Shown: positions 27,471 through 51,705 of the stretch, piece by piece
Numbering within the stretch: position 1 is the stretch's first letter
Layout of the letters: each line of letters starts with the position of its first letter
Notes under the pieces: generated by a model
Told to the model about the DNA's origin: nothing
The model's database searches: none
The model's input: only the letters and a program-made list of their open reading frames with translations
Made by a program: the position numbers and the translations under genes
From: Nostoc sp. HK-01
Lineage (GTDB): Bacteria; Cyanobacteriota; Cyanobacteriia; Cyanobacteriales; Nostocaceae
Reading direction: 5' to 3'
Length of the DNA: 64,000 bases
Assembly: GCA_003990705.1 (NCBI GenBank)
Contig: AP018318.1
Location: 558,001 to 622,000 of the forward strand

Positions 27471-28328
27471 CTAGCTGTTAGCTTTTTTTAGAGAACGGCG
27501 ACGAGTTTTGAGTAAACCAATTGCACCTATACCAGCCAAGGCTAAGGTTGCAGAAGGTTCTGGAACACTAACACCTTTTGTTAATTCATGGGCATTTCTA
27601 GAACCAATATCTATGGCAAAAACGACATCATTATAATCTTTGTCGCCGCCTCCCCATAAGTCTTCATAACCCAAGACTAAGAAGTTCTTGTACACATAAG
27701 TCATTACGTGTTGTAAACCATCTGGATTGGTAGCTTCATTTAACCCAAATACACCTTTAACTGTTGTTCCTTGTTGGTTCTTTCCGTAGATACCTCCATT
27801 GATGTCATTAGAGTGCAATAAGAAATCAAGTGTAGTACCAGCTTGGAATTTACCTAAGCTCACCCAGTCACCAATTTTTAATGGGCTATCTTGTTGGGTT
27901 TTATTAGCTAAAGCATCGTTAGGATTTGCACAGAAATCTTTAAAATTTTGAAAAGCACTATCTTTGGTACTACAAGATGTATCGCCAAATATTTTTCCCG
28001 TGGTGACTGTATCACCATAAGTTGCTTTAAAATCTAAACGGTTGCGATAACCACCAGCAGTTTCACCAATAAAGAAAACTTTAGTATCGTGAGCATATTT
28101 CAGGGTTAGTTGAGATAAATCAACTTTCTGCGCTCCAATTGTCTCAGGAGATAAGTAACGAGATTCTTTGCCCACAAAATCTTTGAAGTCTTGGATATTA
28201 TCTTTAAAATCAGCTGGCGCTTCATTTCTGCTTTGAATGTTAACTGCGTTTGCTGGTGCAGCAGATACCCACAAGCCAGCTACTAAAGCTGTTGCAGTAA
28301 GTAAATTAGGAAACAATGAATTTTTCAT
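27471..28328 (-). CDS. Secreted PEP-CTERM protein with DUF4114 domain
   Basis: A 285-residue exported protein. It has an N-terminal signal peptide (residues 1-28, cut after 'APANA'), a body of about 200 residues, a DUF4114 domain near the C terminus ('LVLGYEDLWGGGDKDYNDVVFAIDIG', acidic, possibly Ca-binding), then a PEP-CTERM sorting signal: 'VPEPSATLALAGIGAIGLL' followed by basic 'KTRRRSLKK'. The family is processed and anchored or released by an exosortase-like system in the envelope. Specific role unknown. Monocistronic. Confidence 0.87.
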   Translation of the reverse strand: MKNSLFPNLLTATALVAGLWVSAAPANAVNIQSRNEAPADFKDNIQDFKDFVGKESRYLSPETIGAQKVDLSQLTLKYAHDTKVFFIGETAGGYRNRLDFKATYGDTVTTGKIFGDTSCSTKDSAFQNFKDFCANPNDALANKTQQDSPLKIGDWVSLGKFQAGTTLDFLLHSNDINGGIYGKNQQGTTVKGVFGLNEATNPDGLQHVMTYVYKNFLVLGYEDLWGGGDKDYNDVVFAIDIGSRNAHELTKGVSVPEPSATLALAGIGAIGLLKTRRRSLKKANS

Positions 28329-29034: not shown

Positions 29035-29742
29035 TTGTTAATTCTGATTCCTGGTTTAACATCAATTCCACCTTTGTGGCTGCAAATTACCATAGTTGCA
29101 GTTTGGGTGTTGCTTATCCTCCTGCTTTCATGGGTGGTAAGTCGCTTTGCTACTGATGATTCAGAAATAGTCAGGAAAATAGTTCATATTGGTACTGGCA
29201 ATGTGATTCTGTTGGCTTGGTGGCTAGATATCCCGGCTGAAGTAGGTATTACAGCTTCGATTTTAGCGAGTATTGTGACTTTGTTATCTTATCGATTGCC
29301 GATTCTGCCGGGGATTAACAGCGTTGGTCGCCAAAGTTTAGGAACATTTTTTTATGCTGTGAGTTTTGGTATTTTAGTTGCCTGGTTTTGGCATTTGCAA
29401 CAACCACAATATGCGGCGATTGGAATTATGGTAATGACTTGGGGAGATGGTTTAGCAGCATTGGTAGGTCAACGCTTTGGTCAACATAAGTATAAAGTTT
29501 TTGGGGTAAATAAAAGCTGGGAAGGCTCTTTGACTATGACGTTAGCCAGCTATATGGTGAGTAGTTTGATTTTGCTGGGTGTACAAGGAAATATCTGGCA
29601 AATTTGGGTGGTGTCATTGGCTGTGGCGATCGCAGCTACTGGTTTAGAAGCTGTTTCCTTGTTAGGTATTGATAATTTAACCGTTCCTTTAGGTAGTGCC
29701 AGTTTAGCCTTTGTATTAATGCAACTATTGTCAGCTAACTAG
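29035..29742 (+). CDS. Phytol kinase-like membrane protein (CTP-dependent prenol kinase family)
   Basis: A 235-residue polytopic protein with about seven hydrophobic helices. It shows family marks of the dolichol/phytol kinase group: 'SEIVRKIVHIGTGNVIL' near the N terminus, 'MTWGDGLAALVGQRFG' (the D-G motif for nucleotide) and 'GVNKSWEGSLTMTLAS'. Plant VTE5 and cyanobacterial homologues phosphorylate phytol released from chlorophyll for tocopherol synthesis. The start is uncertain: a stop lies 15 bp upstream and the first usable codon is TTG 29035. Confidence 0.82.
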   Translation: MLILIPGLTSIPPLWLQITIVAVWVLLILLLSWVVSRFATDDSEIVRKIVHIGTGNVILLAWWLDIPAEVGITASILASIVTLLSYRLPILPGINSVGRQSLGTFFYAVSFGILVAWFWHLQQPQYAAIGIMVMTWGDGLAALVGQRFGQHKYKVFGVNKSWEGSLTMTLASYMVSSLILLGVQGNIWQIWVVSLAVAIAATGLEAVSLLGIDNLTVPLGSASLAFVLMQLLSAN

Positions 29743-29996
29743 GTTGAGATAGGATGTCTGATCGACAATCCAGAATAATGAATTAATTGAATGGGAATAA
29801 GCCAAAAAACTGTACTTATTCACTAAAATTTACTATTTTTACTCGCAGAATACCAGGATATCCTAAACACATAAAAGATTTTTTTATATCTACTGTGAGT
29901 AGTAAAACTATTGTTTTGATTTCTATCTATAGATTTATGATTTCCTGACAAACAGTGCTTATAGTTGGTTACTTAGGTGGTCAACCCACCAACTGT

Positions 29997-30016
29997 AAGT
30001 GAGGCTAACAATCATG
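29997..30016 (+). promoter_or_regulatory. Translation-start region shared with the GG-leader peptide gene
   Basis: AAGTGAGGC, then 8 bases, then ATG. The same 20 positions before and including the ATG at 35292 match at 17 of 20 with identical spacing. Both are preceded by CAACT and by a small inverted repeat (here AGTTGGT/ACCAACT, 29963-29994). Confidence 0.6.
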
Positions 30017-30127
30017 TTACATCCAATATTTTTATCAGAGTTGTTGAGCGATTTATGCGATCAACGACTAGAGTTAATTTTTACTGGCGCAGAGTTGGCG
30101 ATCATCTGCGATTTTTATGCTGAATAA
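30014..30127 (+). CDS. Possible divergent secreted-peptide precursor (37 residues)
   Basis: A small ORF starting at an ATG with GAGG nine bases upstream. The region before the start is nearly the same as that of the double-glycine precursor at 35292. The peptide contains 'LSELLSDLCDQRLELIFTGA', which resembles a C39-transporter leader ending in Gly-Ala instead of Gly-Gly, and leaves an 11-residue tail 'ELAIICDFYAE'. It may be a second substrate of the downstream transporter, a decayed one, or chance. It is too short for compositional proof. Confidence 0.4.
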   Translation: MLHPIFLSELLSDLCDQRLELIFTGAELAIICDFYAE

Positions 30128-30254
30128 TTATCACGGTATTGCAAAAGCCAAATTGCTGAAATTTTGGGGTTTTGTAGAATCAAGGGATGAAATTTGTTTT
30201 GCAGTTTAACATCTGAACTCATCTCGCATTGATACAATACCAATTTTTGATATT

Positions 30255-30367
30255 AGGATTTACGCAGTGAAACGAAAAATCAAAGGTTTAAGGAAGCGTG
30301 TAGGGGTATAGATGTTCACAACCCTGACACCCAACCTCAACAGCTAATCTTTGTGCGTAAGTCCTGG
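30255..30367. repeat. MITE-like dispersed repeat, copy B
   Basis: It starts 'aggatttacgca' and ends 'tgcgtaagtcct', giving 11-12 bp inverted ends with one mismatch. The interior aligns with 9854-9955. No ORF; it could be mobilised in trans by a transposase that is not in this window. Confidence 0.75.
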
Positions 30368-30959
30368 ATACCACACAGCCATCTGTGCGATCGCTGTCAT
30401 TATGAGCAGTTTGTTAGTGCCAAAGATAAATAGCTTTTTTCTAGCTTGAAAATCAATTAAGGCAATGATTTTGCCTTAATTAAGAAGAGGGGAGAGGAGA
30501 TAATTATCACTCGCTCAACGTAAGTGAGGTCTTTGAGGGAGTCTGAGTCTTCTCCTCTGTTTTCTCTCCGCGTTGCCCACGTTAGAGATGTGAGAAAAGT
30601 TATTGCTGTGCTTGTTTGGCACACACTTTTCTCTTCCCCCATAACTGATTATAAAGGATTATTTGTGATGATGTTATCTGCTTTTGATCAAGGGAATTTA
30701 TGCAAAACTTGCTTTGAGCGATCGCATTCTAGATAAAAGCTGAAATTTTCTGAGTTTTTCGCTATGGTGTCAGTGCAGAATTGTCTAATTATTCCTTTTG
30801 ATTTATTACCAAATAAATAGGAACTCCCTCATTCTTGAGATACACAAAGACAGAATTAACTGTCAATAACAGAGGATAAACGCAAAAAAAATAAAGATTT
30901 TGAAGTTACTGCATCAAGCTTCAGCTTATAGATCAATTTCAAAAATAAGGTGCAATACA

Positions 30960-32780
30960 GTGAATTTCTTACGCGCTCAGGAAAACTATGCTGACAATAG
31001 TTTTAATGACCTGAATCCAGAACAACTCCCTGTATTTGATGTGAATGAATTTCTCCCCAGTATTGGTAAATGGGTAAACATTACTGGGGGCATAATGATC
31101 ACTATTTTGGTGCTGGGAGTGATTTTATCTTCGATACTCAAGTACAATGTCACAGTGAAAGTTCCGGCAACAATTAGACCTTTAGGAGAACTAAAAGTTG
31201 TTGAGTCTGCTATTACTGGAACTGTGCAGAAAATTGAGGCGAAAGATAGTCAGATTGTTAAACAAGGACAAGCGATCGCCTACATTGATGATTCGCGGCT
31301 GCAAAATCAAAAAAGTCAACTACAAACCAGCATTCAAAAGAGTAAATTACAACTAGGTCAAATTGAGGCTCAACTGAGTGAAATTAACATTCAACTTGCG
31401 GCTCAAACTGAACTAATGAACCGGACGATTCTCGCGGCGCAAGCAGAGTTAAATGGTACTGAACGCAACTATCAAGATCAACGTATTAAAGCTTTTGCGG
31501 AAATGACGCAAGCACAAACAGCTTTTACTTTAGCGAAATTACAAAAAGACCGATTACGGCGAGAAAAACTCTTAACTACCACTGTGCAAGAAACAGAAGC
31601 CGCTTTGGCGTTAGCGAGAGTGCAACGCGATCGCTTACAGGGGGAAAAATTATTGCAATCAACTGTACAAGCAGCTGAAATAGCCTTGCATATAGCTCAA
31701 AAGCAAAAAGATAGATTGCAGCGTGATCAATTGTTAAAGATTACTGTGCAAGAAGCAGAAGCCGCTTTGCAAATGGCTAAGTTACAACGCGATCGCTTGC
31801 AGTCGATAGTAGCACTAGGAGCCGTACCACTCAATTTATTTGAGGAAAAAGCGCAAGCAGTCAAAGAAGCGGAAGCTAAGTTAGTACAAACCAAAGCCAA
31901 CACTAAAAATCTTCTAGAAGAAAAAGAACAAGGGGTGATTTCAGCGCAAGCAAAACTCGCCCAAGCTCAAGAAAATGCCAAAAATAGCTTAGAAGAAAAA
32001 GTACAAGCAGTCAAAGCGGCGGAAACTAAGTTAGAACAAGCCAAAGCTGATGCAAAAAATAGCTTAGAAGAAAAAGACCAAGCTCTGACAATTGCTGAAA
32101 CCAACTTAATTAAAGTGAAAACTGCATTGAACCCCAGTGATTCGCCTGTAGCGGTAGCATCTGCACGTATTCAGCAAGAACAGGCCAAGAAAGAAGCAGA
32201 TTTAGCAGCTTTGAAAAAGGAAAGAGAAACCTTACTTCAGCAGCGCACAGAATTCCAAAAACAACTAGATACCACCCAAAAACAACTCCAACAAACCGAC
32301 AATGAATTAAGTAAGACTGTAATTCGCGCCCCAAGCGACGGTATTTTATTGCAGTTTAAATTACGCAACCCTGGACAAATTGTACAACCTAGTGAAGCGA
32401 TCGCTCAGATTGCGCCTCTTGATGCAGCAATGCAAATCAAAGCAAGAGTACCCGCGCAGGATATCGACAAGGTAAAAGCAAATCAACAAGTTCAAATGCA
32501 GGTTTCGGCTTGTCCTTATCCAGATTACGGCACACTCAAGGGTACTGTAACCACAATCGCACCAGATGCTTTAGCAGTGGAAAAAAACAGTGCATTGCCT
32601 ACTGTAGAGCCAACGCCAGCTTATGAAGTAACAGTTGTACCGCAAACTGCATCTGTTGGTAGAGGCGATCGCCAGTGTCATCTCAAACCAGGAATGGAGG
32701 GACGCGCTGATATCATTTCTCGCCAAGAAACAATCATGCAATTCATTCTGCGAAAAGCCAGATTAGTTGCAGATATCTAG
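30960..32780 (+). CDS. HlyD-family membrane fusion protein of a peptide export system
   Basis: About 606 residues from the GTG at 30960, which has AAGGTG upstream (a TTG at 30900 would add 20). Order: short cytosolic N terminus, one membrane helix ('IMITILVLGVILSSIL'), a biotinyl/lipoyl half-motif ('GTVQKIEAKDSQIVKQGQAIAYID'), a very long coiled-coil hairpin, the second lipoyl half ('VIRAPSDGILLQFKLRNPGQIVQPSEAIAQI') and a beta-barrel. The coiled coil has two tandem repeat families, 27-residue and 25-residue. It should bridge the following C39 ABC transporter to an outer-membrane TolC-like channel. It ends 53 bp before the transporter gene, so the two are likely one operon. Confidence 0.9.
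   Translation: MNFLRAQENYADNSFNDLNPEQLPVFDVNEFLPSIGKWVNITGGIMITILVLGVILSSILKYNVTVKVPATIRPLGELKVVESAITGTVQKIEAKDSQIVKQGQAIAYIDDSRLQNQKSQLQTSIQKSKLQLGQIEAQLSEINIQLAAQTELMNRTILAAQAELNGTERNYQDQRIKAFAEMTQAQTAFTLAKLQKDRLRREKLLTTTVQETEAALALARVQRDRLQGEKLLQSTVQAAEIALHIAQKQKDRLQRDQLLKITVQEAEAALQMAKLQRDRLQSIVALGAVPLNLFEEKAQAVKEAEAKLVQTKANTKNLLEEKEQGVISAQAKLAQAQENAKNSLEEKVQAVKAAETKLEQAKADAKNSLEEKDQALTIAETNLIKVKTALNPSDSPVAVASARIQQEQAKKEADLAALKKERETLLQQRTEFQKQLDTTQKQLQQTDNELSKTVIRAPSDGILLQFKLRNPGQIVQPSEAIAQIAPLDAAMQIKARVPAQDIDKVKANQQVQMQVSACPYPDYGTLKGTVTTIAPDALAVEKNSALPTVEPTPAYEVTVVPQTASVGRGDRQCHLKPGMEGRADIISRQETIMQFILRKARLVADI
31524..31805 (+). repeat. 27-codon tandem repeat inside the HlyD gene
   Basis: Three full copies and a partial fourth of a 27-residue unit with the core 'A.(L/V/K)Q(K/R)DRL...(K/Q)LL..TVQ..E.A'. 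They extend the coiled-coil arm. Confidence 0.85.
31842..32129 (+). repeat. 25-codon tandem repeat inside the HlyD gene
   Basis: Three full copies and a partial fourth of a 25-residue unit beginning EEK(A/E/V/D)Q and ending K-N-(L/S)-L, distinct from the 27-residue family just before it. They would form the returning strand of the coiled-coil hairpin. Confidence 0.85.
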
Positions 32781-32833
32781 CACAATTCAGAATCAAAAAA
32801 TCTATCTTTCTGCATTACGAATTACGAATTATC

Positions 32834-35008
32834 ATGTTTGGTCTATTCAAATTTAAACACCAAAAAAAATATCAGTGTGTTTTACAGTCAAGTGAAGAGG
32901 ACTGTGGAGCCGCTTGTCTAGTTTCGATTTGCAAACATTACGGACGCTTCTTAAGCATGAGTAAAAGCCGAGAAGCAGTCGGAACAGGACATTTAGGCAC
33001 AACTTTATTAGGACTCAAACGCGGCTGTGAGACATTGGGATTTAATGCAAGAGCCGTGAAAGCTGCACCGGCGATCGTAGACAGAATTACAGAAATTAAT
33101 CTACCAGCGATTATTCATTGGCGCGGCTATCACTGGGTTGTGCTGTACGGTAAGCGAGGAAAAAAGTATGTGATTGGTGATCCGGCGATCGGCTTACGCT
33201 ACATTACCCGCGAAGAATTAACTACTGGTTGGAATGGAGTTATGCTCTTATTAGAGCCAGACCCCACGCGTTTTTTTGTGCAGTTTCAGGAAGAAACAAA
33301 GCAGGGTTTAGGAAAATTTTTTCAGCGTGTATTACCTTATCGAAATTTACTTGGTCAGGTATTGCTAATTAATATTGCTTTAGGTGTACTGGCGCTAGGT
33401 AGTCCTGTTTTGCTGCAACTACTAACAGATGATGTTTTAGTACGGGGAGATACTCAATTACTAATTGTTGTGATTTCAGCCGTTGTCATCAGTAGCTTAT
33501 TTAGTAGTAGTTTGCAAGTCGTACAATCCATGATGATTGCTCATTTTGGTCAACGGCTGCAATTAGGACTGGTAATGGAGTTTGCGCGGAAAATTCTTCA
33601 GTTACCTTTGAGTTATTATGAATCGCGCCGCAGTGGGGAAATTTCTAGCCGACTGCGGGATATTGATGAAATCAATCAGTTAGTATCACAAATAGTCATT
33701 CTGTTACCCAGCCAGTTTTTTATTGCGGTAATTTCTTTCAGCATTATGCTGTTTTATAGCTGGGAGTTAACAATTGCAGTTATCTTAGTTGCTTTATTAA
33801 TTACAGTATCTACTTTACCTTTTTTACCCATTCTCCAACAAAAAACGCGCAGTTTGTTAGTTTTAGGTGCAGAAAATCAAGGTGTGCTGGTAGAAACATT
33901 TAAAGGCGCACAGGTAATTAAAACGACTAATGCTGCTCCGCAATTTTGGGATGAATTTCAAAGCCGCTTTGGTCGTTTGGCACATTTAACTTTCAGCACA
34001 ATTCAAATTGGGATTATTAACGGTACTGTTGCGAGATTAATTTCTACTATTGGTGGAGTAGTTTTATTAGGATTAGGCAGTCTTTTAGTGATTCAAGGAA
34101 AATTAAGTATTGGTCAAATCTTGGCTTTTAATGCTTTACAAGTTAATATCTTTAATTTAATTAACTCTTTAGTTGGGTTTGGAGATGAATATTTTCGATC
34201 GCAAACGGCTGTCTCTCGGCTTTTAGAAGTTATTGAAGCGACACCAGAAGTAATTGGTGGAAGCCAAAAACCAACTGTGCAAATACCTGCTGATGCAGAT
34301 ATTCGGTTTTCCCAAGTGACCTTTCATCATGCTGGGAGAGTTGATTTGTTAGAAGAATTTTCTCTGAAACTTCCTGGGGGAAATGCGATCGCTTTGATTG
34401 GAAAATCAGGATGTGGGAAAAGTTCTTTAGCAAAACTGATTGCGGGTTTGTATCAGTTGAATTCTGGGAATATCCGCATTGGTTTTTATAATATTCAGGA
34501 TATCGCCCTTGACTGTTTACGCCAACAAGTAGTTTATGTACCGCAAGAACCGCATTTTTGGAGTCGCTCGATTTTAGATAACTTTCGCTTAGGTAGTCCT
34601 CATATTGCTTTTGAGGAAATTGTCAAAGCTTGTGAAATTGCGGATGCAGATAATTTTATTAGTCAACTACCAAATAATTATCAAACTGTTTTAGGAGAGT
34701 TTGGTGCTAATCTCTCTGGTGGACAACGACAACGATTAGCGATCGCTAGAGGAATTCTCACTAATCCACCTATATTGATTTTAGATGAAGCAACAGCCGG
34801 ACTCGACCCTGTGAGCGAAGCACAAGTCTTAGATCGGTTGTTAGCATACCGCAAAGGTAAAACTACAATTTTGATTACTCATCGTCCTAGTGTAGTGCAT
34901 CGTGCTGATTGGATTGTCATGCTAGATCAAGGTCAAGTGCAATTACAAGGTACATTAGAAACATTTCTCTCTCAACAAGGAGAACATTTAAAGTTTTTAT
35001 CTTTTTAA
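32834..35008 (+). CDS. Peptidase-containing ABC transporter (C39, bacteriocin type)
   Basis: A 724-residue PCAT. Residues 1-130 form a C39 papain-like peptidase with Cys24 ('SEEDCGAACL'), His100 ('GYHWVVLY') and Asp116 ('IGDPAIG'), which cuts leaders after double glycine. Then come an ABC exporter membrane domain (about 165-450, six helices) and a nucleotide-binding domain with Walker A 'GKSGCGKSSL', signature 'LSGGQRQR', Walker B 'ILILDEAT' and H-loop 'ITHRPS'. All catalytic residues are present. It follows the HlyD partner and precedes a peptide with a GG leader, its evident substrate. Confidence 0.95.
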   Translation: MFGLFKFKHQKKYQCVLQSSEEDCGAACLVSICKHYGRFLSMSKSREAVGTGHLGTTLLGLKRGCETLGFNARAVKAAPAIVDRITEINLPAIIHWRGYHWVVLYGKRGKKYVIGDPAIGLRYITREELTTGWNGVMLLLEPDPTRFFVQFQEETKQGLGKFFQRVLPYRNLLGQVLLINIALGVLALGSPVLLQLLTDDVLVRGDTQLLIVVISAVVISSLFSSSLQVVQSMMIAHFGQRLQLGLVMEFARKILQLPLSYYESRRSGEISSRLRDIDEINQLVSQIVILLPSQFFIAVISFSIMLFYSWELTIAVILVALLITVSTLPFLPILQQKTRSLLVLGAENQGVLVETFKGAQVIKTTNAAPQFWDEFQSRFGRLAHLTFSTIQIGIINGTVARLISTIGGVVLLGLGSLLVIQGKLSIGQILAFNALQVNIFNLINSLVGFGDEYFRSQTAVSRLLEVIEATPEVIGGSQKPTVQIPADADIRFSQVTFHHAGRVDLLEEFSLKLPGGNAIALIGKSGCGKSSLAKLIAGLYQLNSGNIRIGFYNIQDIALDCLRQQVVYVPQEPHFWSRSILDNFRLGSPHIAFEEIVKACEIADADNFISQLPNNYQTVLGEFGANLSGGQRQRLAIARGILTNPPILILDEATAGLDPVSEAQVLDRLLAYRKGKTTILITHRPSVVHRADWIVMLDQGQVQLQGTLETFLSQQGEHLKFLSF

Positions 35009-35274
35009 ACGGTCGTAAATTTGGAAATTAGTCCTTTATATTGCTCATATTTCTGATTTTTTAAGTGTCCAGAAATATTTGTATTTACTCATATTTCATA
35101 AATATCGATATTACTATTTATGAATTTTAAAATCAAAAGGTAATTTTAAAATTGTTTTAATTAAGTTAGTCCAAAAGAATGAGCTTTTGTTAAATAAACT
35201 ATAACCAGAGAATAATTTATTAAAAGACATAATAGCTAATAATAAAGGCGTAGGTTTTACAAAACCTATCAACT

Positions 35275-35294
35275 AAGTGAGGCAAAGAATTATG
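35275..35294 (+). promoter_or_regulatory. Start region of the GG-leader peptide gene
   Basis: AAGTGAGGC sits nine bases before ATG 35292, preceded by a short hairpin TAGGTTT/AAACCTA (35251-35268). It is nearly identical to the start region at 29997-30016. Confidence 0.6.
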
Positions 35295-35537
35295 TCAAAT
35301 AAATTAATCACATCTACTTTACTTGTTGACTTATCAACAGAAGAACAGCAGCTGTTATCTGGTGGACAAACTGGTGGACAACCAAGAGGTGGTAGTCAAT
35401 CTCCTTATGGTGGACAATTCCCATCTAACGGACAACCATCATATCCATCACAGGGGGATGAATCCCGCCGTTATCCCACATATATCTGTCGTCCAGTTTA
35501 CGATGATGACAGTAGTACCTCCGGCGGCGGACAGTAA
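35292..35537 (+). CDS. Double-glycine-leader peptide precursor (bacteriocin-like)
   Basis: An 81-residue precursor. Residues 1-25 form a leader with 'VDLSTEEQQLLSGG', the L-S-x-E-E-x-x-x-L-x-G-G pattern cut by C39 peptidases. The predicted 56-residue core is rich in Gly, Gln, Ser, Pro and Tyr, has one Cys ('YICRPVY') and ends 'DDDSSTSGGGQ'. With a single Cys it cannot form an intramolecular disulfide or lanthionine ring network. It resembles the short GG-leader peptides next to HlyD/C39 transporters in cyanobacteria. Activity (bacteriocin, signal or matrix component) is unknown. ATG 35292 is preferred over an in-frame start at 35277. A terminator hairpin follows. Confidence 0.78.
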   Translation: MSNKLITSTLLVDLSTEEQQLLSGGQTGGQPRGGSQSPYGGQFPSNGQPSYPSQGDESRRYPTYICRPVYDDDSSTSGGGQ

Positions 35538-35599
35538 ATAATCAGTAGTTTCAGCTTAAACACTGGGTAATTACCCAAAATTGCTGATGTTTGTACCTA

Positions 35600-35624
35600 G
35601 CTCAGTGTTGTCTAGACACTGGGC
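35600..35624 (+). terminator. Terminator after the GG-leader peptide gene
   Basis: GCTCAGTGT and ACACTGGGC form a 9-bp stem (one G-T pair) around TGTCTAG, followed by a T-rich run. It separates the export cassette from the kinase gene. Confidence 0.7.
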
Positions 35625-35757
35625 TTATTGCATTTTAAGCAAAATGGCTTGATTTTAGGCAGCTTTTCTTTAGCTAAATCAGAAAAACTATTACAGCACT
35701 CTTGTCACTTTTAAAAGCGTGCAAATTATACTGGTTAGGCTAGTAAAAATAGCTCTA

Positions 35758-38700
35758 ATGCTTGAGCAACCTATGATCGCACTGGAAGGGTACAAAATTT
35801 TAAGAGAACTGTATGATAGTCCTCGTTCTCAGGTGTATCAGGGATACCGAGAGTCCGATCGCCAACCAGTAGTGTTGAAATTATTGCGGGAGGAATATCC
35901 TACCCCAGAAGCGATCGCACGATTTAAACTCGAATACGAACTGACACGCCGCTTTCAAGTTCCGGGAATTATCCAAGCCTACAGCGTCGAAAAATATGCC
36001 AACACTTTAGTTCTAGTTTTAGAAGATTTTGGTGGACAACCTCTGCGGAGTTTCCTTAATCAAAAACCTTTAGAACTGGAGAATTTTCTGCACATTGCAA
36101 TTCAAGTTGCAGCGGCTTTAGGTGCAATTCACCAGCAACAAATTATTCATAAAGATATTAATCCTGCCAATATTCTCCTTAATCCCTTAACGCAACAGAC
36201 AAAGATTATTGATTTTGGTATTGCGACGTTGTTGTCAAAGGAAAATCCTACTTTACTGAACCTGAATATTTTAGAAGGGACACTGGCCTACATTTCGCCG
36301 GAACAAACAGGGAGAATGAATCGGGCGATTGATTATCGTAGCGATTTTTATTCTTTGGGTGTGACATTTTACGAATTACTGACGCAACAATTACCCTTTG
36401 TTAGTGAAGATCCAGTCGAACTAGTTCACAGCCACATTGCTAAACAAGCGATTTCGCCTCATAAACTAAATCCGGCAATTCCTATAGTAATTTCTAATTT
36501 AGTGATGAAATTGCTCGAAAAGACTGCTGAAGAAAGATATCAAAGCGCCTTTGGTTTGCAAGTAGACTTACAGCAATGCCTCGATTTATTCATAACTACA
36601 GGCGAAATTAAAACTTTTCAATTAGGAAAAAAAGATAGTTCTGATAGATTCCAAATTCCCCAAACACTTTATGGCAGAGAACAAGAAGTTACAGATTTAT
36701 TGATGGCTTTTGATCGGGCTAGTCATGGACAAAGCGAAGTTATGTTGATTGCAGGTTATTCTGGAATTGGCAAATCAGCTTTAGTGCAGGAAATTTATAA
36801 ACCGATTACCCAAAAACGGGGATATTTCATCTCAGGTAAGTTTGATCAGTTTCAACGCAATATTCCCTACAGTTCGTTAATTCAAGCATTCACAGCTTTA
36901 ATTCGCCAACTTTTAACCGCAACCGAAACAGAAATCAATCTCTGGCGAGAAAAATTATTAAATGCTTTGGGTGACAATGGTCAAGTAATTATTGATGTCA
37001 TTTCTGAAGTCGAATTAATTATTGGCAAGCAGCCACCTGTTATAGAACTACCAGCGCAGGAAGCCCAAAATCGCTTTAATTTAGTATTTCAAAACTTTAT
37101 TACTGTCTTTACCCAAAAAGAACATCCTTTGGTAATTTTCTTGGATGATTTGCAATGGGCGGATAGTGCATCGTTGCAGTTAATTGAGTTATTAACTAGT
37201 CATTTAGATAGCCGCTACTTGTTGTTGATTGGTGCTTATCGAGATCATGAAGTAGATTCTACCCATCCTTTGCGGAGTGCGATCGCCTCTTTAGAGTCAT
37301 CTGGTGTCATAATTCACGAAATCACATTAACACCGTTAGAATTACCCCAAATTCATACACTCCTCAGTGATACCTTTAATAGTCACGATTGGGCAAAGTT
37401 AACTCCCCTGGCAGAACTATTACAGCAAAAAACTAACGGCAATCCCTTCTTTATGAATGAATTCCTGAAGTCGCTGTATACAGAAGGATTGTTGCAATTT
37501 GATGTGCAACGCCGGGAATGGGATTGGCAACTGGGCCAAATTCAAGCGGCGCAAATTACCGATAACGTTGTGGAATTAATGGCGGGTAAAATTCAAAAAC
37601 TACCAACCGCCTCTCAGCAAGCGTTACAGTTAGCATCTTGTATTGGTAATCAATTTGATTTAAAAACCTTAGCGATTGTCCAAGAAAAATCTTTGCCAGA
37701 GACAGCCACTGAGTTATGGGAAGCTGTAGAAATGGGGCTGATTTTTCCTCAAGGTAACGACTATCAATTATTACAAGTAGGTGATCGGGAAATTGCCGCT
37801 AACCTAACAAATTTAGATGTTGTCTACAAATTCTTACACGATCGCGTCCAACAAGCAGCTTATTCACTCATTCCCACCAAGGAAAAACAAGCAGTTCACT
37901 TGCAAATTGGACAACTGTTATTACAGAATATTACCACCGAGGAACAAGAAGAAAAGATTTTTGACATTGTTAACCAATTAAACTTCGGCTTAAATTTAGT
38001 CACAGATGAATCACAGCGACAGCAATTAGCCCAGTTAAATTTGCTGGCGGGGAACAAAGCCAAAGCCTCCGCCGCTTACGAACCTGCTTTAGATTACCTG
38101 ACAACGGGCATTAACTGTTTAGCAACATCCTGTTGGCAACAGCAGTATTCTTTGGCTTTATCTCTGCACGAAGCCGCAGTGGAAGCTGCTTATTTGACTG
38201 GGGCGTTTGAATACATGGATGAATTAATTGAGATTGTATTACGTCACACCCGCACTACACTTGATCAAGTCCAAGTCTACGCCATCAAAATTCAATCTCT
38301 TGTTGCCAGAGATGAATTGTTAACAGCCTCAAAATTAGGTTTGCAAGTTCTTAAACTGTTGAAAATTCCTTTAGTCGCTAACCCTGGACAACTGCAAATT
38401 TTGTTAGGACTGTTAAAAACGAAACTGGCTTTGACTAGTAGACAGGTACAAACCTTAGCTGATTTACCGAGACTGACAAATCCTACTAAATTAGCGGCTA
38501 TTCGTATTTTAGCCAGTATTGCTTCGTCAACTTATCTTGCAGCGCCAAATTTGTTTCCCTTAACTGTGTTTAAACAGGTGGAACTTTCCGCCATACATGG
38601 TAACGCGCCAGAATCAGCTTTTGCCTACGCTACTTATGGCTTGATTTTGTGTGGTGTAGTGGGAGATTTGACAGGAGGGTATGAGTTTGGTGAGTTGGCA

Positions 38701-41124
38701 TTAAAACTGATAGAAAGGTTTAACGCCAAAAATATGCAAGCAAGAGTATTGTTTGTTGTTAATAGTTTTGTGCGTCACTGGCGAGAACCAATTGTTAATA
38801 CTATACCTGCATTGCAAATTGCTTTTCAAGTAGGTCGAGATACGGGTGATACTGAATATGCAGCTTTTGCAGCGAATGTTGGTACCAGTCATAGTTATTT
38901 TTGTGGTCAAGATTTAAAAGAAGTAGATAAAAGTTTAGCGACTTATTTAGAGGTAATTCAGAAGTTTAAGAAAAAGCCAGTTTTTGATTTAATTCAAATT
39001 TATCGGCAGGCGATCGCTAATTTACAAGGCAAAAATGCTAATCCCTGCGAGTTGGTGGGGGAATTTTACGACGCAACTAAAACCTTACCCCTACATATCG
39101 AGACTAATTATCGCACAGCAACTTTTACTGTATACAATCATCTAATGACACTGAATTATTGGTTTGAAGATTACAATACTGCTTGGCAAAATGCTGAATT
39201 AGCAATTCCTTATTTAGATGCTGTAGTAGCATTATTCATCATTGGATGGTTTAACTTTTATGATTCTTTGGTGCGGTTAGCCTTAGCGCCAATAAAAACT
39301 GTCACAGAACGGCAAGCATTACTCAAACAAGTAACAGCAAATCAGAAGAAATTAAAAACTTGGGCGCAATCTGCACCGAGTAACTACGCTCATAAATTAG
39401 CCTTGGTAGAAGCAGAATGGTATCGAGTTCAAGGTGAAACAGCAGAAGCGATCGCTTGTTACGATCGCGCCATTACTTTAGCCCAAGAAAACAATTATCC
39501 TCACGAAGCTGCTTTGGCAAATGAATTAGCAGCCAAGTTTTATTTAGCCCAAAATAAATTAAAGATTGCCCAAGGATACATGCAGGATGCGTCATATCTT
39601 TATTTACAGTGGGGCGCAACTGCTAAAGTTAAATATCTGGAAACTCAATATCCTCAACTTTTAAGCCGCAAGTTAGAAAGAATTACTATCCCCCATATTT
39701 CTACCAAAAATACTAACGCCAGCAGTATCACCAGTAGCAGTGGTTCCGCATCACTGGATTTGATGACAGTTATGAAAGCTTCGCAAGCTTTGTCAGGAGA
39801 AATTCAACTTGATAAATTGCTGGCTAACTTGATGCAAATTTTGATAGAAAATGCTGGGGCGCAACGGGGATTTCTGTTACTGGAAACTAAAGGTAAATTT
39901 TTAATAGAAGCCCAGGGAAGCGTTGAACAAAATAATATTCAAGTACTGGAATCTCTAAATATTGAAGATAGTCAGATTCTTTCTGTGGCAATTGTGAATT
40001 ATGTGATTCGCACCAAAACGAGTGTAGTGCTTAATGATGCTGCTCGCAAAGGTGAATTTATCCGTGATGCTTACATTCGCCAATTTCAACCGCGATCGCT
40101 TTTGTGTGCGCCGTTGATTAATCAAGGCAAACTTACAGGTATTATCTATTTAGAAAATAACTTGACCACAGGTGCATTCACTCCTGATCGTTTGGAGTTA
40201 CTCAACTTACTTTCAGCACAAGCGGCGATTTCTATCGAAAACGCCCGTTTATACACCGACTTAGCAGCCTTAAACCAAGCTTACGAACGCTTCGTTCCCC
40301 GTCAATTTCTCCAATTCCTCAACAAACAAAGTATTGTCGATGTGCAGTTAGGTGATCAAGTCCAGCGGGAAATGTCGGTGTTATTTACTGATATTCGTTC
40401 TTTCACTACACTTTCAGAAACTTTAACTCCGGCGGAAAACTTTCAATTTATCAACTCTTATTTGAGTTGTATGGAACCAATCATTATTCAACATAATGGT
40501 TTCATTGATAAATATATTGGTGATGCCATTATGGCTTTATTTGCTGGTAATGCTGATGATGCAGTACAAGCCGGCATTGCCATGTTACAAGCTTTAGTAA
40601 CTTACAATCAAGAACGGCAAGCACAAGGAGATTTACCAATTAAAATTGGCATTGGAATTAATACAGGAACACTGATTTTGGGGACAGTCGGCGGATTTAA
40701 TCGTATGGATGGTACAGTCATTAGTGATGCCGTCAACTTAGCTTCGCGGATAGAAGGGTTAACTAAAACATTCAACACACCGCTATTAATTACAGACCAA
40801 ACATTTCAGCGGTTAAAAAATTGCGATCGCTCTCATATTCGCGTAGTTGGACAAGTAAAAGTTAAAGGTAAAATTACGGCTGTAACTGTCCATGAAGTAT
40901 TTACTGCTGATGTTACAGAAGTTCGCCAAGGTAAGTTAGTAACTAAAGAATTGTTTACCGCAGCACTTAAACTTTATGAAGCACAACAATTTACCTCAGC
41001 CGCCCAACATTTTCAAGATTGCTTACAACAAAACCCCTTAGATCAAGTTGCACAAATTTATCTTAATCTTTGTCATTCAGAGTTGAAATTATCAACCATT
41101 TTTACAGAAGAAATTAAGTTATAA
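35758..41124 (+). CDS. Multidomain Ser/Thr kinase - ATPase - GAF - nucleotide cyclase
   Basis: About 1,788 residues. An N-terminal Hanks-type kinase (VVLK lysine; catalytic 'IIHKDINPANILL' with HKD for HRD; 'IIDFG'; 'YISPEQTGRMN') is followed by an AAA/NACHT-like ATPase ('GYSGIGKSALVQ', 'LVIFLDDLQWAD'), a long TPR-like helical region (about 780-1330), a GAF domain (about 1355-1495) and a class III cyclase domain (about 1530-1720). The cyclase has metal Asps ('LFTDIRSFT', 'KYIGDAIMALF') and 'DAVNLASRIEG' with the transition-state Asn and Arg, so it looks active. ATG 35758 or 35773 starts the conserved 'MIALEGYKILRELYDS'. Substrates are unknown. Confidence 0.87.
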   Translation: MLEQPMIALEGYKILRELYDSPRSQVYQGYRESDRQPVVLKLLREEYPTPEAIARFKLEYELTRRFQVPGIIQAYSVEKYANTLVLVLEDFGGQPLRSFLNQKPLELENFLHIAIQVAAALGAIHQQQIIHKDINPANILLNPLTQQTKIIDFGIATLLSKENPTLLNLNILEGTLAYISPEQTGRMNRAIDYRSDFYSLGVTFYELLTQQLPFVSEDPVELVHSHIAKQAISPHKLNPAIPIVISNLVMKLLEKTAEERYQSAFGLQVDLQQCLDLFITTGEIKTFQLGKKDSSDRFQIPQTLYGREQEVTDLLMAFDRASHGQSEVMLIAGYSGIGKSALVQEIYKPITQKRGYFISGKFDQFQRNIPYSSLIQAFTALIRQLLTATETEINLWREKLLNALGDNGQVIIDVISEVELIIGKQPPVIELPAQEAQNRFNLVFQNFITVFTQKEHPLVIFLDDLQWADSASLQLIELLTSHLDSRYLLLIGAYRDHEVDSTHPLRSAIASLESSGVIIHEITLTPLELPQIHTLLSDTFNSHDWAKLTPLAELLQQKTNGNPFFMNEFLKSLYTEGLLQFDVQRREWDWQLGQIQAAQITDNVVELMAGKIQKLPTASQQALQLASCIGNQFDLKTLAIVQEKSLPETATELWEAVEMGLIFPQGNDYQLLQVGDREIAANLTNLDVVYKFLHDRVQQAAYSLIPTKEKQAVHLQIGQLLLQNITTEEQEEKIFDIVNQLNFGLNLVTDESQRQQLAQLNLLAGNKAKASAAYEPALDYLTTGINCLATSCWQQQYSLALSLHEAAVEAAYLTGAFEYMDELIEIVLRHTRTTLDQVQVYAIKIQSLVARDELLTASKLGLQVLKLLKIPLVANPGQLQILLGLLKTKLALTSRQVQTLADLPRLTNPTKLAAIRILASIASSTYLAAPNLFPLTVFKQVELSAIHGNAPESAFAYATYGLILCGVVGDLTGGYEFGELALKLIERFNAKNMQARVLFVVNSFVRHWREPIVNTIPALQIAFQVGRDTGDTEYAAFAANVGTSHSYFCGQDLKEVDKSLATYLEVIQKFKKKPVFDLIQIYRQAIANLQGKNANPCELVGEFYDATKTLPLHIETNYRTATFTVYNHLMTLNYWFEDYNTAWQNAELAIPYLDAVVALFIIGWFNFYDSLVRLALAPIKTVTERQALLKQVTANQKKLKTWAQSAPSNYAHKLALVEAEWYRVQGETAEAIACYDRAITLAQENNYPHEAALANELAAKFYLAQNKLKIAQGYMQDASYLYLQWGATAKVKYLETQYPQLLSRKLERITIPHISTKNTNASSITSSSGSASLDLMTVMKASQALSGEIQLDKLLANLMQILIENAGAQRGFLLLETKGKFLIEAQGSVEQNNIQVLESLNIEDSQILSVAIVNYVIRTKTSVVLNDAARKGEFIRDAYIRQFQPRSLLCAPLINQGKLTGIIYLENNLTTGAFTPDRLELLNLLSAQAAISIENARLYTDLAALNQAYERFVPRQFLQFLNKQSIVDVQLGDQVQREMSVLFTDIRSFTTLSETLTPAENFQFINSYLSCMEPIIIQHNGFIDKYIGDAIMALFAGNADDAVQAGIAMLQALVTYNQERQAQGDLPIKIGIGINTGTLILGTVGGFNRMDGTVISDAVNLASRIEGLTKTFNTPLLITDQTFQRLKNCDRSHIRVVGQVKVKGKITAVTVHEVFTADVTEVRQGKLVTKELFTAALKLYEAQQFTSAAQHFQDCLQQNPLDQVAQIYLNLCHSELKLSTIFTEEIKL

Positions 41125-51302: not shown

Positions 51303-51318
51303 AGTTGGTTATCTTTAG

Positions 51319-51705
51319 TGGATCCGAGCAGAGTCGAACTGCTGTCCAAATTGGGTATTGACTCCCCGCTCATTCACAGGTTTAGCCTTTCTGACCCTCA
51401 AGGCGGGAATCGTTCATTATCCCGAACGTAGGATGCTCTGATTTAATCTTAGCTAACAAGCCAACCAGAGAACGCTTGTTAGAGCATCCGTTGGGGGTTG
51501 GTCTCTAATCCTTAACGGAGTCAAACTAGAGACGCTCGAACCTATAAGAGGCGTTTTAGGCAGCTACTAGAGCTTCCCGACGAGCAAATTTAACGATGTT
51601 ATTCGCATTTACTTTTTTTTGAGCCTTTGATTTGCGAGAGGAGACTCACTCTCGACCTGAATCACAGAGTAGCGTTCGCCAACCTGTCGAAACCGTTACG
51701 GACCC
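51319..51705 (-). ncRNA. ssrA: tmRNA (one-piece)
   Basis: A 387-nt transfer-messenger RNA that rescues stalled ribosomes. The 5' end GGGTCCG (at 51705) pairs with CGGATCC near the 3' end to form the acceptor stem. The T-arm is 'GCAGTTCGACTCTGC', and the D-like 'GGTTTCGACAGG' follows the 5' end. The CCA is not encoded: the sequence reads on as CTAAA after the discriminator A. The tag frame encodes ANNIVKFARREALVAA then TAA (51556-51606), close to the known Nostoc tag. Several pseudoknot stems are visible downstream. It works with SmpB, not in the window. Confidence 0.96.

Follow-up and report, generated by a model that had tools for sequence, protein, structure and literature searches.

Cyanobacteria have many peptides with a double-glycine (GG) leader, but how these are controlled and what they do is known for few of them. 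In a 64,000-nucleotide stretch of the Nostoc sp. HK-01 genome (the window; contig AP018318.1, positions 558,001 to 622,000), a gene for one such peptide lies behind genes for an HlyD-type adaptor and a C39 peptidase-ABC exporter. We find that the locus is probably a C39 export locus of the PCAT type, with the layout of Wang group III, and that its 81-residue peptide (here P0001) belongs to a set of GG-leader peptides, spread across the Nostocaceae, whose cores differ behind one shared front end for expression and export. As read from the sequence, this front end comprises a promoter-like block, a 5′ hairpin, an extended ribosome-binding site (RBS, commonly GTAAGTGAGG), and a leader conserved at synonymous sites. 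Cassette and peptide belong to a familiar type; what is apparently new is the shared leader and a four-way-junction RNA, both tied to one exporter clade.

A 5′ leader element common to GG-leader peptide genes

In our survey of the bacterial family (217 genomes of Nostocaceae), the P0001 leader has relatives in 95 genomes (E ≤ 0.01), and a hairpin with an extended RBS is seen before most of them. A covariance model of this 5′ leader element (R1), built from 24 leaders, matches 100 of the genomes. Among the 150 R1 matches listed (more exist), 147 lie directly before an open reading frame (ORF) with a GG-type leader, judged by a loose pattern, whatever the core, a count that is not fully independent, since the model takes in the RBS and ATG and the training leaders are partly among its matches; most matches are absent from the training set, and their cores are diverse. 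Of the other three, one stands at a damaged leader, one before an ORF in which the leader continues into other sequence, and behind the third no ORF of at least 25 codons was found. As the R1 signature finds GG-leader genes whatever their core, it offers a way to list the set in Nostocaceae and points to shared control.

The promoter-like block AGAATAATTTA is found within two mismatches before 103 of these 147 leaders, in 91 of them at −34/−35 of the element, against a mean of 24 and a largest value of 34 in shuffles. The six central bases of the hairpin are fully paired in 119 of the 150 listed matches. On 122 distinct matches, in an alignment that is fitted to the R1 model, hairpin covariation reaches 0.191 (0.093 when shuffled, with none of 500 shuffles as high; slid controls ≤0.054), which indicates that the stem has been kept by compensatory changes. 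The window's own R1 sequence folds barely better than shuffles (z −1.0); with 33 of 67 distinct 5′ regions, at most 10 of 200 shuffles give a better fold (mean z −1.8).

An inverted repeat before an RBS could instead be a DNA operator for a dimeric regulator. The arms read exactly ATAGGT/ACCTAT in 89 of the 150 listed leaders, and symmetrical changes would fit an operator too. Among the fully paired cases, however, the arms stand from ~5 to ~42 nucleotides (nt) apart, a range that a fixed dimer site would not tolerate, some leaders (L013, L021, L028) carry long near-perfect hairpins instead, and the element sits 3′ of the promoter-like block and adjoins the RBS. We therefore consider an operator unlikely, and treat the repeat as an RNA hairpin below.

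Conservation extends into the leader codons. Among eight members of the genus, synonymous divergence (dS) is 0.08 in the leader and at least 0.66 in the rest of the gene. Between genera, identical leader residues use the same codon at a frequency of 0.543, compared with 0.408 ± 0.007 in 20 simulations with codons drawn from the cores (133 leaders; 17 of the 150 R1 matches were dropped, their start or motif being unreadable). Over 128 leaders, ACA encodes 64 of 67 Thr residues and GGA 94 of the 128 second Gly residues; the two Gln and position 3 show codon agreement below expectation, and the conservation is therefore position-specific. RNAalifold on 91 leaders had suggested that leader codons sequester the RBS; this was not supported, the probability of pairing between the Shine-Dalgarno (SD) sequence and the leader being 0.475 in real leaders and 0.471 once synonymous codons had been resampled (p 0.94; 130 of 133 records). 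Taken whole, real leaders fold a little more stably than resampled ones (−24.06 vs. −23.00 kcal/mol, p 1e-4). Gene conversion within genomes likewise found no support: among leaders of the commonest length, with pairs of middling core similarity left out, leader identity is 0.720 for the 73 different-core pairs that lie in one genome and 0.723 for the 458 that span genomes of a genus. Neither SD pairing nor within-genome gene conversion thus appears to explain the codon conservation.

The genome that contains the window (G000, 7.5 Mb) holds two significant R1 copies, one before P0001 and one before an orphan peptide that has a GG leader and a core of the ITVTPFAKC type (C1:4319291; L044 8277-8552, equivalent to G000:C1:4319276-4319551). 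The orphan lies far from the listed C39 genes, and similar peptides occur in other members of the genus; the exporter may serve it in trans.

A four-way-junction RNA and one exporter clade

A block upstream of hlyD is conserved at ~80-85% identity over some 315-400 nt within the genus, and at 77-79% in two neighbourhoods from other genera (L042, L043). A protein encoded in this block was rejected, as its frames are broken in several relatives and none is consistently open. Searches with nhmmer recovered the block in further loci, together with divergent copies 29-94 nt past the stop codons of GG-peptide genes; we refer to the hlyD-side copies as class A and to the peptide-side copies as class B. 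With RIBOSUM scoring and changed weights, class A, class B and joint alignments share a closing stem, a long arm and two further hairpins, while default RNAalifold yields only part of this junction structure (25 pairs). The same junction of four helices results when positions 30484-30645 of the window are folded alone (−56.8 kcal/mol, z −3.28, against z −1.55 for the cut 30482-30630). Across 20 sequences, 84.9% of cells pair (80.5 shuffled), both-side changes occur in 20 of 48 pairs (14.6 ± 2.3 in shuffles, 8 of 500 reaching it), and the covariation score is 0.236 compared with 0.175 in shuffles (none of 500 as high; slid controls ≤0.158).

A covariance model of the junction (R3) places this RNA of ~170 nt in 92 of the 217 genomes, tied to peptide and exporter genes, which makes it a candidate new RNA family with a testable role. 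Of 150 R3 matches listed (again of more existing), 85 lie upstream of hlyD, 64 behind a GG-peptide gene (including two placed by the coordinates of loci L012 and L019), and one in neither position. On the hlyD side, the exporter's C39 match follows 84 listed copies at a distance of 1.7-2.6 kb, and the remaining copy stands immediately in front of an hlyD-type ORF. The sole listed copy with neither GG peptide nor hlyD in the surrounding 1.2 kb is G129:C1:7700735-7700912 (L266). Weaker opposite-strand matches were put down to palindromic stems and dropped. Behind P0001 itself no R3 copy was found in the window (best 2.0 bits with filters off); its orthologues have matches there in L041 (E = 5.6e-12), L042 (1e-5) and L043 (2e-4).

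The recurrence of R3 behind so many array peptide genes is what would be expected of a cassette boundary, that is, of a mobile or recombination element that spread with the peptide genes and regulates nothing. This seems improbable to us: 149 of the 150 listed copies stay in a peptide or exporter gene context, the hlyD-side copies have the top R3 scores and are kept where upstream peptides have decayed or are missing (the window, L035, L038, L039), and there is no sign of recent leader conversion within genomes.

A regulatory reading draws on a short string that is predicted to lie in an apical loop of class A copies. The common peptide-gene RBS GTAAGTGAGG, which serves as RBS in 105 of the 150 listed peptide leaders, is present exactly in all 30 best-scoring class A copies (of 85 listed) and in none of 12 class B copies; the window holds two copies where 0.07 are expected, and the RBS of P0001, CTAAGTGAGG, is one base off. 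This supports, though it does not establish, a role of the string as a decoy or as a site for a shared binder, the plain alternative being common descent from an old peptide RBS. It is possible, if doubtful, that secretion is RNA-controlled across the lineage, with the shared 5′ leader as one regulatory unit, the loop of the hlyD-side RNA displaying the RBS string GUAAGUGAGG as a decoy, and a shared RNA-binding protein or small RNA that recognizes this string coupling exporter expression to peptide translation. Were this so, the RNA would be a new family, and RBS mimicry a new regulatory logic for secreted peptides.

Both elements follow one clade of exporters. Exporter orthologues, defined by a C39 part matching at E ≤ 1e-71 with at least 75% identity, are present in 104 of the 217 genomes, in 99 of the 100 genomes with R1 (in the exception, G083, the C39 match, at 74%, narrowly misses the threshold) and in 91 of the 92 with R3 (the exception, G107, has a weak R3 match, E = 0.004). 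Two members of the genus, G159 and G160, have no leader match, R1, R3 or exporter orthologue at the thresholds used. In samples of the class, R1 was found in 17 of 388 genomes (16 in the family and one outside, E = 5.9e-4) and R3 in 18 of 376 (16 in the family and two outside, E = 0.005 and 0.007), and both elements thus appear nearly confined to the family. At G209:C1:2205558-2205986, the matched C39 stretch of an exporter orthologue is interrupted by a TGA stop, although the genome concerned still has copies of R1 and R3.

Several points weigh against a common front end tied to this exporter. The exporter cut-off was chosen after the gap to 2.1e-69 had been seen, 5 of the 104 exporter genomes have no R1 and 13 no R3 at the thresholds used, and, the genomes being related, Fisher p-values for the co-occurrence overstate independence. 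The first 24 pattern-selected leaders show no hairpin covariation beyond shuffles, RNAalifold on the larger hairpin set predicts 4 central pairs only, and the further pair types of the junction number 56 vs. 52.5, a value reached by 61 of 500 shuffles. Finally, G158, of the same genus, retains the junction RNA and the exporter, the latter at 97% over its C39 portion, and its sole P0001 match (E ≤ 0.01) covers residues 7-53 and lies elsewhere in the genome; as the exporter is kept without a P0001 orthologue at the locus, P0001 is not its only possible cargo.

A search of Rfam 15 with positions 29700-35800 of the window (E ≤ 10) gave four matches, all below the gathering score and none over 30475-30666 or 35243-35294. 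At the gathering score, across 20 sources, the sole match was a transfer-messenger RNA elsewhere in the window (51316-51705, minus strand; RF00023, 135.7 bits). A literature search that did not cover the 2017 structured-RNA survey found neither RNA element described, and an earlier description is possible.

The locus and its remaining peptide

The first-pass annotation, made from the letters of the window, had read this region as a three-gene cassette of an HlyD-type adaptor, a peptidase-ABC transporter with intact Cys24, His100 and Asp116, and an 81-residue GG-leader peptide right behind it. All three genes were borne out; the cassette is an incomplete description, as positions 29950-30900 also hold a decayed peptide gene and the structured RNA, and several relatives have an array of peptides.

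The mechanically called hlyD frame (30900-32780) begins at TTG 30900 and matches HlyD_3 of Pfam (E = 1.8e-17). The exporter has Peptidase_C39 (E = 1.5e-33), ABC_membrane and ABC_tran domains, and Cys24, His100 and Asp116, which we take to be its catalytic residues, can be read in its sequence together with Walker A, LSGGQ and Walker B motifs. Residues 9-720 align with the solved ABC-type bacteriocin transporter 4ry2 (E = 1.6e-109), and the single chain combines the C39, transmembrane and ATPase domains and the Cys/His/Asp set by which PCAT (C39 peptidase-ABC) exporters are recognized. Its C39 domain starts at residue 12, no cyclic-nucleotide domain is among its Pfam matches, and it alone among the seven C39 matches in the genome lies in an open frame of less than 900 amino acids (765 vs. 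902-1038). Two of the other matches (G000 C1:991998 and C1:1000218) are ~8 kb apart in long open frames, a possible second export locus. Five PADLOC families match the exporter, which we take for ATPase-type matches; P0001 and HlyD have no PADLOC match, and a search of plasmid records gave none.

Table 1. Features of the export locus (positions in the window).
Feature	Position	Strand	Remarks
5′ leader of decayed first array peptide	29960..30016	+	hairpin GGTGG/CCACC; RBS GTAAGTGAGG at 29995-30004
Relic ORF of CTB-family peptide	30014..30127	+	37 codons; eroded leader that has lost its GG; stops early
Four-way-junction RNA, hlyD-side (class A) copy	30475..30666	+	R3 180.1 bits, E = 3.6e-41; ~170 nt
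GTAAGTGAGG, common peptide-gene RBS string	30520..30529	+	nine of ten bases in predicted apical loop
hlyD-type adaptor	30960..32780	+	GTG 30960 the likelier start, as in relatives; 606 amino acids
Short-type C39 peptidase-ABC exporter	32834..35008	+	724 amino acids; Pfam domains, motifs, 4ry2 match
Promoter-like block AGAATAATTTA	35209..35219	+	fixed distance before hairpin
5′ leader element (R1)	35243..35294	+	hairpin 35250-35269, RBS AAGTGAGG 35275-35282, ATG 35292; E = 1.2e-8
Leader-coding part of P0001	35292..35366	+	25 codons up to Gly24-Gly25; synonymous sites conserved too
Core peptide QTGGQ...	35367..35537	+	variable Gly/Gln/Pro spacer, YPTYICRPVY (35472-35501), tail, stop
Terminator-like hairpin behind peptide gene	35599..35625	+	weak: 1 found, 0.5 expected

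Nine neighbourhoods orthologous to the locus (L035-L043) suggest how it came to hold a single peptide. In six of the nine (L036, L037, L040-L043) at least two further GG-type peptides precede hlyD; three such upstream array peptides of relatives, with ADFELAGSNF-type cores, score 89.3, 78.9 and 48.9 bits as members of NF038167 (cut-off 32). The relic in the window was identified by its sequence and by alignment with the L037 gene, and the scores of 89.3 and 78.9 bits are those of its intact relatives. Its 5′ region is nearly intact, near-identical to those of L037 and L039 and 85-91% identical to genus relatives by blastn; its match to R1 is weak (E = 0.26), and the only two zero-mismatch matches to the RBS pattern in the genome are its own and that of P0001. 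L039 holds a relic too. In five of the nine neighbourhoods (L036, L040-L043), a relative whose leader ends in GQ stands right behind the exporter, followed by the P0001 orthologue; no remnant of it was found behind the exporter in the window (best tblastn E 0.58). This GQ-type peptide (SLAAGQ..SDFF in L036) has no AAGTGAGG-type leader and matches NF038167 weakly (21.3 bits). The locus is thus best read as a decayed array that has lost all its precursors but one.

The surviving gene (35292-35537) encodes, after Gly25, a core of 56 residues (G11 S9 Q7 P7 Y5 C1). P0001 is evidently a real gene and not a chance ORF, because its leader relatives are so widespread and its core has orthologues across genera, in seven of ten other genomes of the genus and in three other genera. 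A core rich in Gly, Gln, Ser, Pro and Tyr with a single Cys had been noted before; the composition holds, and what that account lacked is a conserved block, YPTYICRPVY, which carries the Cys across genera. In an alignment of 12 cores (eight of the genus and four of the three other genera), Y61, P62, Y64, C66, R67 and P68 are invariant, and the middle is variable and Gly/Gln/Pro-rich. Among the eight sequences of the genus, nonsynonymous divergence (dN) is 0.047 and dS 0.66 in the block (dN/dS about 0.07), compared with 0.47 and 0.67 in the middle of the core; by this measure the block is under strong purifying selection. The homologues with a conserved GG leader and variable core that the first-pass annotation had proposed to look for therefore exist, and its interpretation holds in part, in that a GG-leader peptide stands beside a C39 exporter.

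At E ≤ 1, P0001 has no Pfam match, and NHLP and Nif11 precursor models are unmatched; its sole NCBIfam match is NF038167, “CTB family bacteriocin”, over residues 1-29 at 21.7 bits, so that only the leader matches and the score falls below the curated cut-off for membership. A LanM-type or cyclodehydratase gene had been said to be absent nearby, and no lanthipeptide enzyme was seen among the neighbour genes inspected; the LanC-like domain PF05147 has no match in the whole genome (E ≤ 0.001), the same search being positive in 1 of 14 control genomes. The absence of LanC does not exclude other core modifications.

Directly downstream of the peptide lies a gene (35719-41124) for a protein of 1801 amino acids with kinase, AAA ATPase, GAF and adenylate/guanylate cyclase parts. 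A DUF4114 protein with a PEP-CTERM motif is encoded close to the locus (27471-28328, minus strand), with a similar neighbour in L035, L038 and L039.

Possible functions and known systems

In the mechanism that we propose, the leader would dock on the C39 domain and be cleaved after Gly25, and the 56-residue core would leave the cell via HlyD and an outer-membrane channel. The Gly/Gln/Pro part of the core may form a flexible spacer that carries a functional C-terminal YPTYICRPVY block, and the 5′ hairpin and junction RNA would determine when or how strongly peptide and exporter are expressed. Presumably the peptides are expressed together and secreted, and resemble most closely the matrix/adhesion peptides EbfG of Synechococcus elongatus. 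By analogy, their function is perhaps in matrix or adhesion, with signalling and antagonism as live rivals.

One rival is that the peptide is an extracellular signal of population or nutrient state, its conserved 10-residue block being what is recognized. A short conserved block after a variable spacer would suit a signal, C39 exporters serve pheromones in Gram-positive bacteria (PMC10986499), and the kinase/cyclase gene that starts at 35719 also follows the orthologue in L035, L036, L038, L039 and L041. That gene is absent behind the orthologue in L037 (of the same genus), L042 and L043 and cut short in L040, a terminator-like hairpin separates it from the peptide gene, and no receptor has been identified; we hold a signal to be rather unlikely.

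The NCBI family name implies, alternatively, bacteriocins against related strains, with the leader merely an export tag. The leader match to NF038167 agrees with this, as do cores that differ widely between paralogues, a pattern antagonism would favour, and a Nodularia CTB operon is induced by phosphate limitation and discussed as allelopathic (PMC9846622). Yet P0001 falls short of the family cut-off, its block is under strong purifying selection, and the neighbours inspected showed no immunity-like gene, no search aimed at such genes having been made. The name itself corresponds to no tested function, and the tested cyanobacterial system of like kind acts, as far as the accounts of it go, in biofilm formation. 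A role in antagonism is accordingly of low probability in our view, and matrix or adhesion peptides remain the reading that we prefer.

The tested system is EbfG1-4/PteB of Synechococcus elongatus PCC 7942, in which a C39 peptidase transporter assists the secretion of GG-motif peptides; EbfG1-3 form amyloid, and EbfG4 is found on the cell surface and in the matrix (PMC4997328, PMC9981879). The HK-01 locus is alike in pairing the gene for a GG-motif peptide with that for a C39 peptidase transporter. It differs in that P0001 has a Gly/Gln/Pro-rich core ending in a Tyr-rich part, in which the amyloid hotspot motif described in the 2023 paper (PMC9981879) is not seen; the 2016 paper (PMC4997328) states that mature EbfG has no homology to proteins of other cyanobacteria. 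Another Nostoc C39 exporter, HetC, has no known substrate.

Among the cyanobacterial bacteriocin-type clusters described by Wang, Fewer and Sivonen in 2011 (PMC3140520), with an average of 3.89 precursors per cluster in that paper, group III comes closest to the present case. The present locus is assigned to this group by gene layout, with HlyD, a short C39-ABC protein without CAP_ED, and variable cores; group III clusters have several precursors, and here all but one appear lost. The Results of that paper make no mention of a shared 5′ leader, codon-level leader conservation or a structured RNA, and the Tolypothrix and Nodularia genome papers, in the portions that bear on this, list CTB-type genes only. 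With NF038167, P0001 shares the N-terminal leader (residues 1-29) and not the core.

In hypervariable toxin families such as conotoxins, position-specific codon conservation marks the constant part of the precursor and the mature part is variable. The GG-leader set resembles them in having a constant part conserved at codon level before a variable mature part, and differs in consisting of bacterial leader peptides beside a C39 exporter, so that the alternatives of RNA-level constraint and reuse of a leader module are now testable in bacteria.

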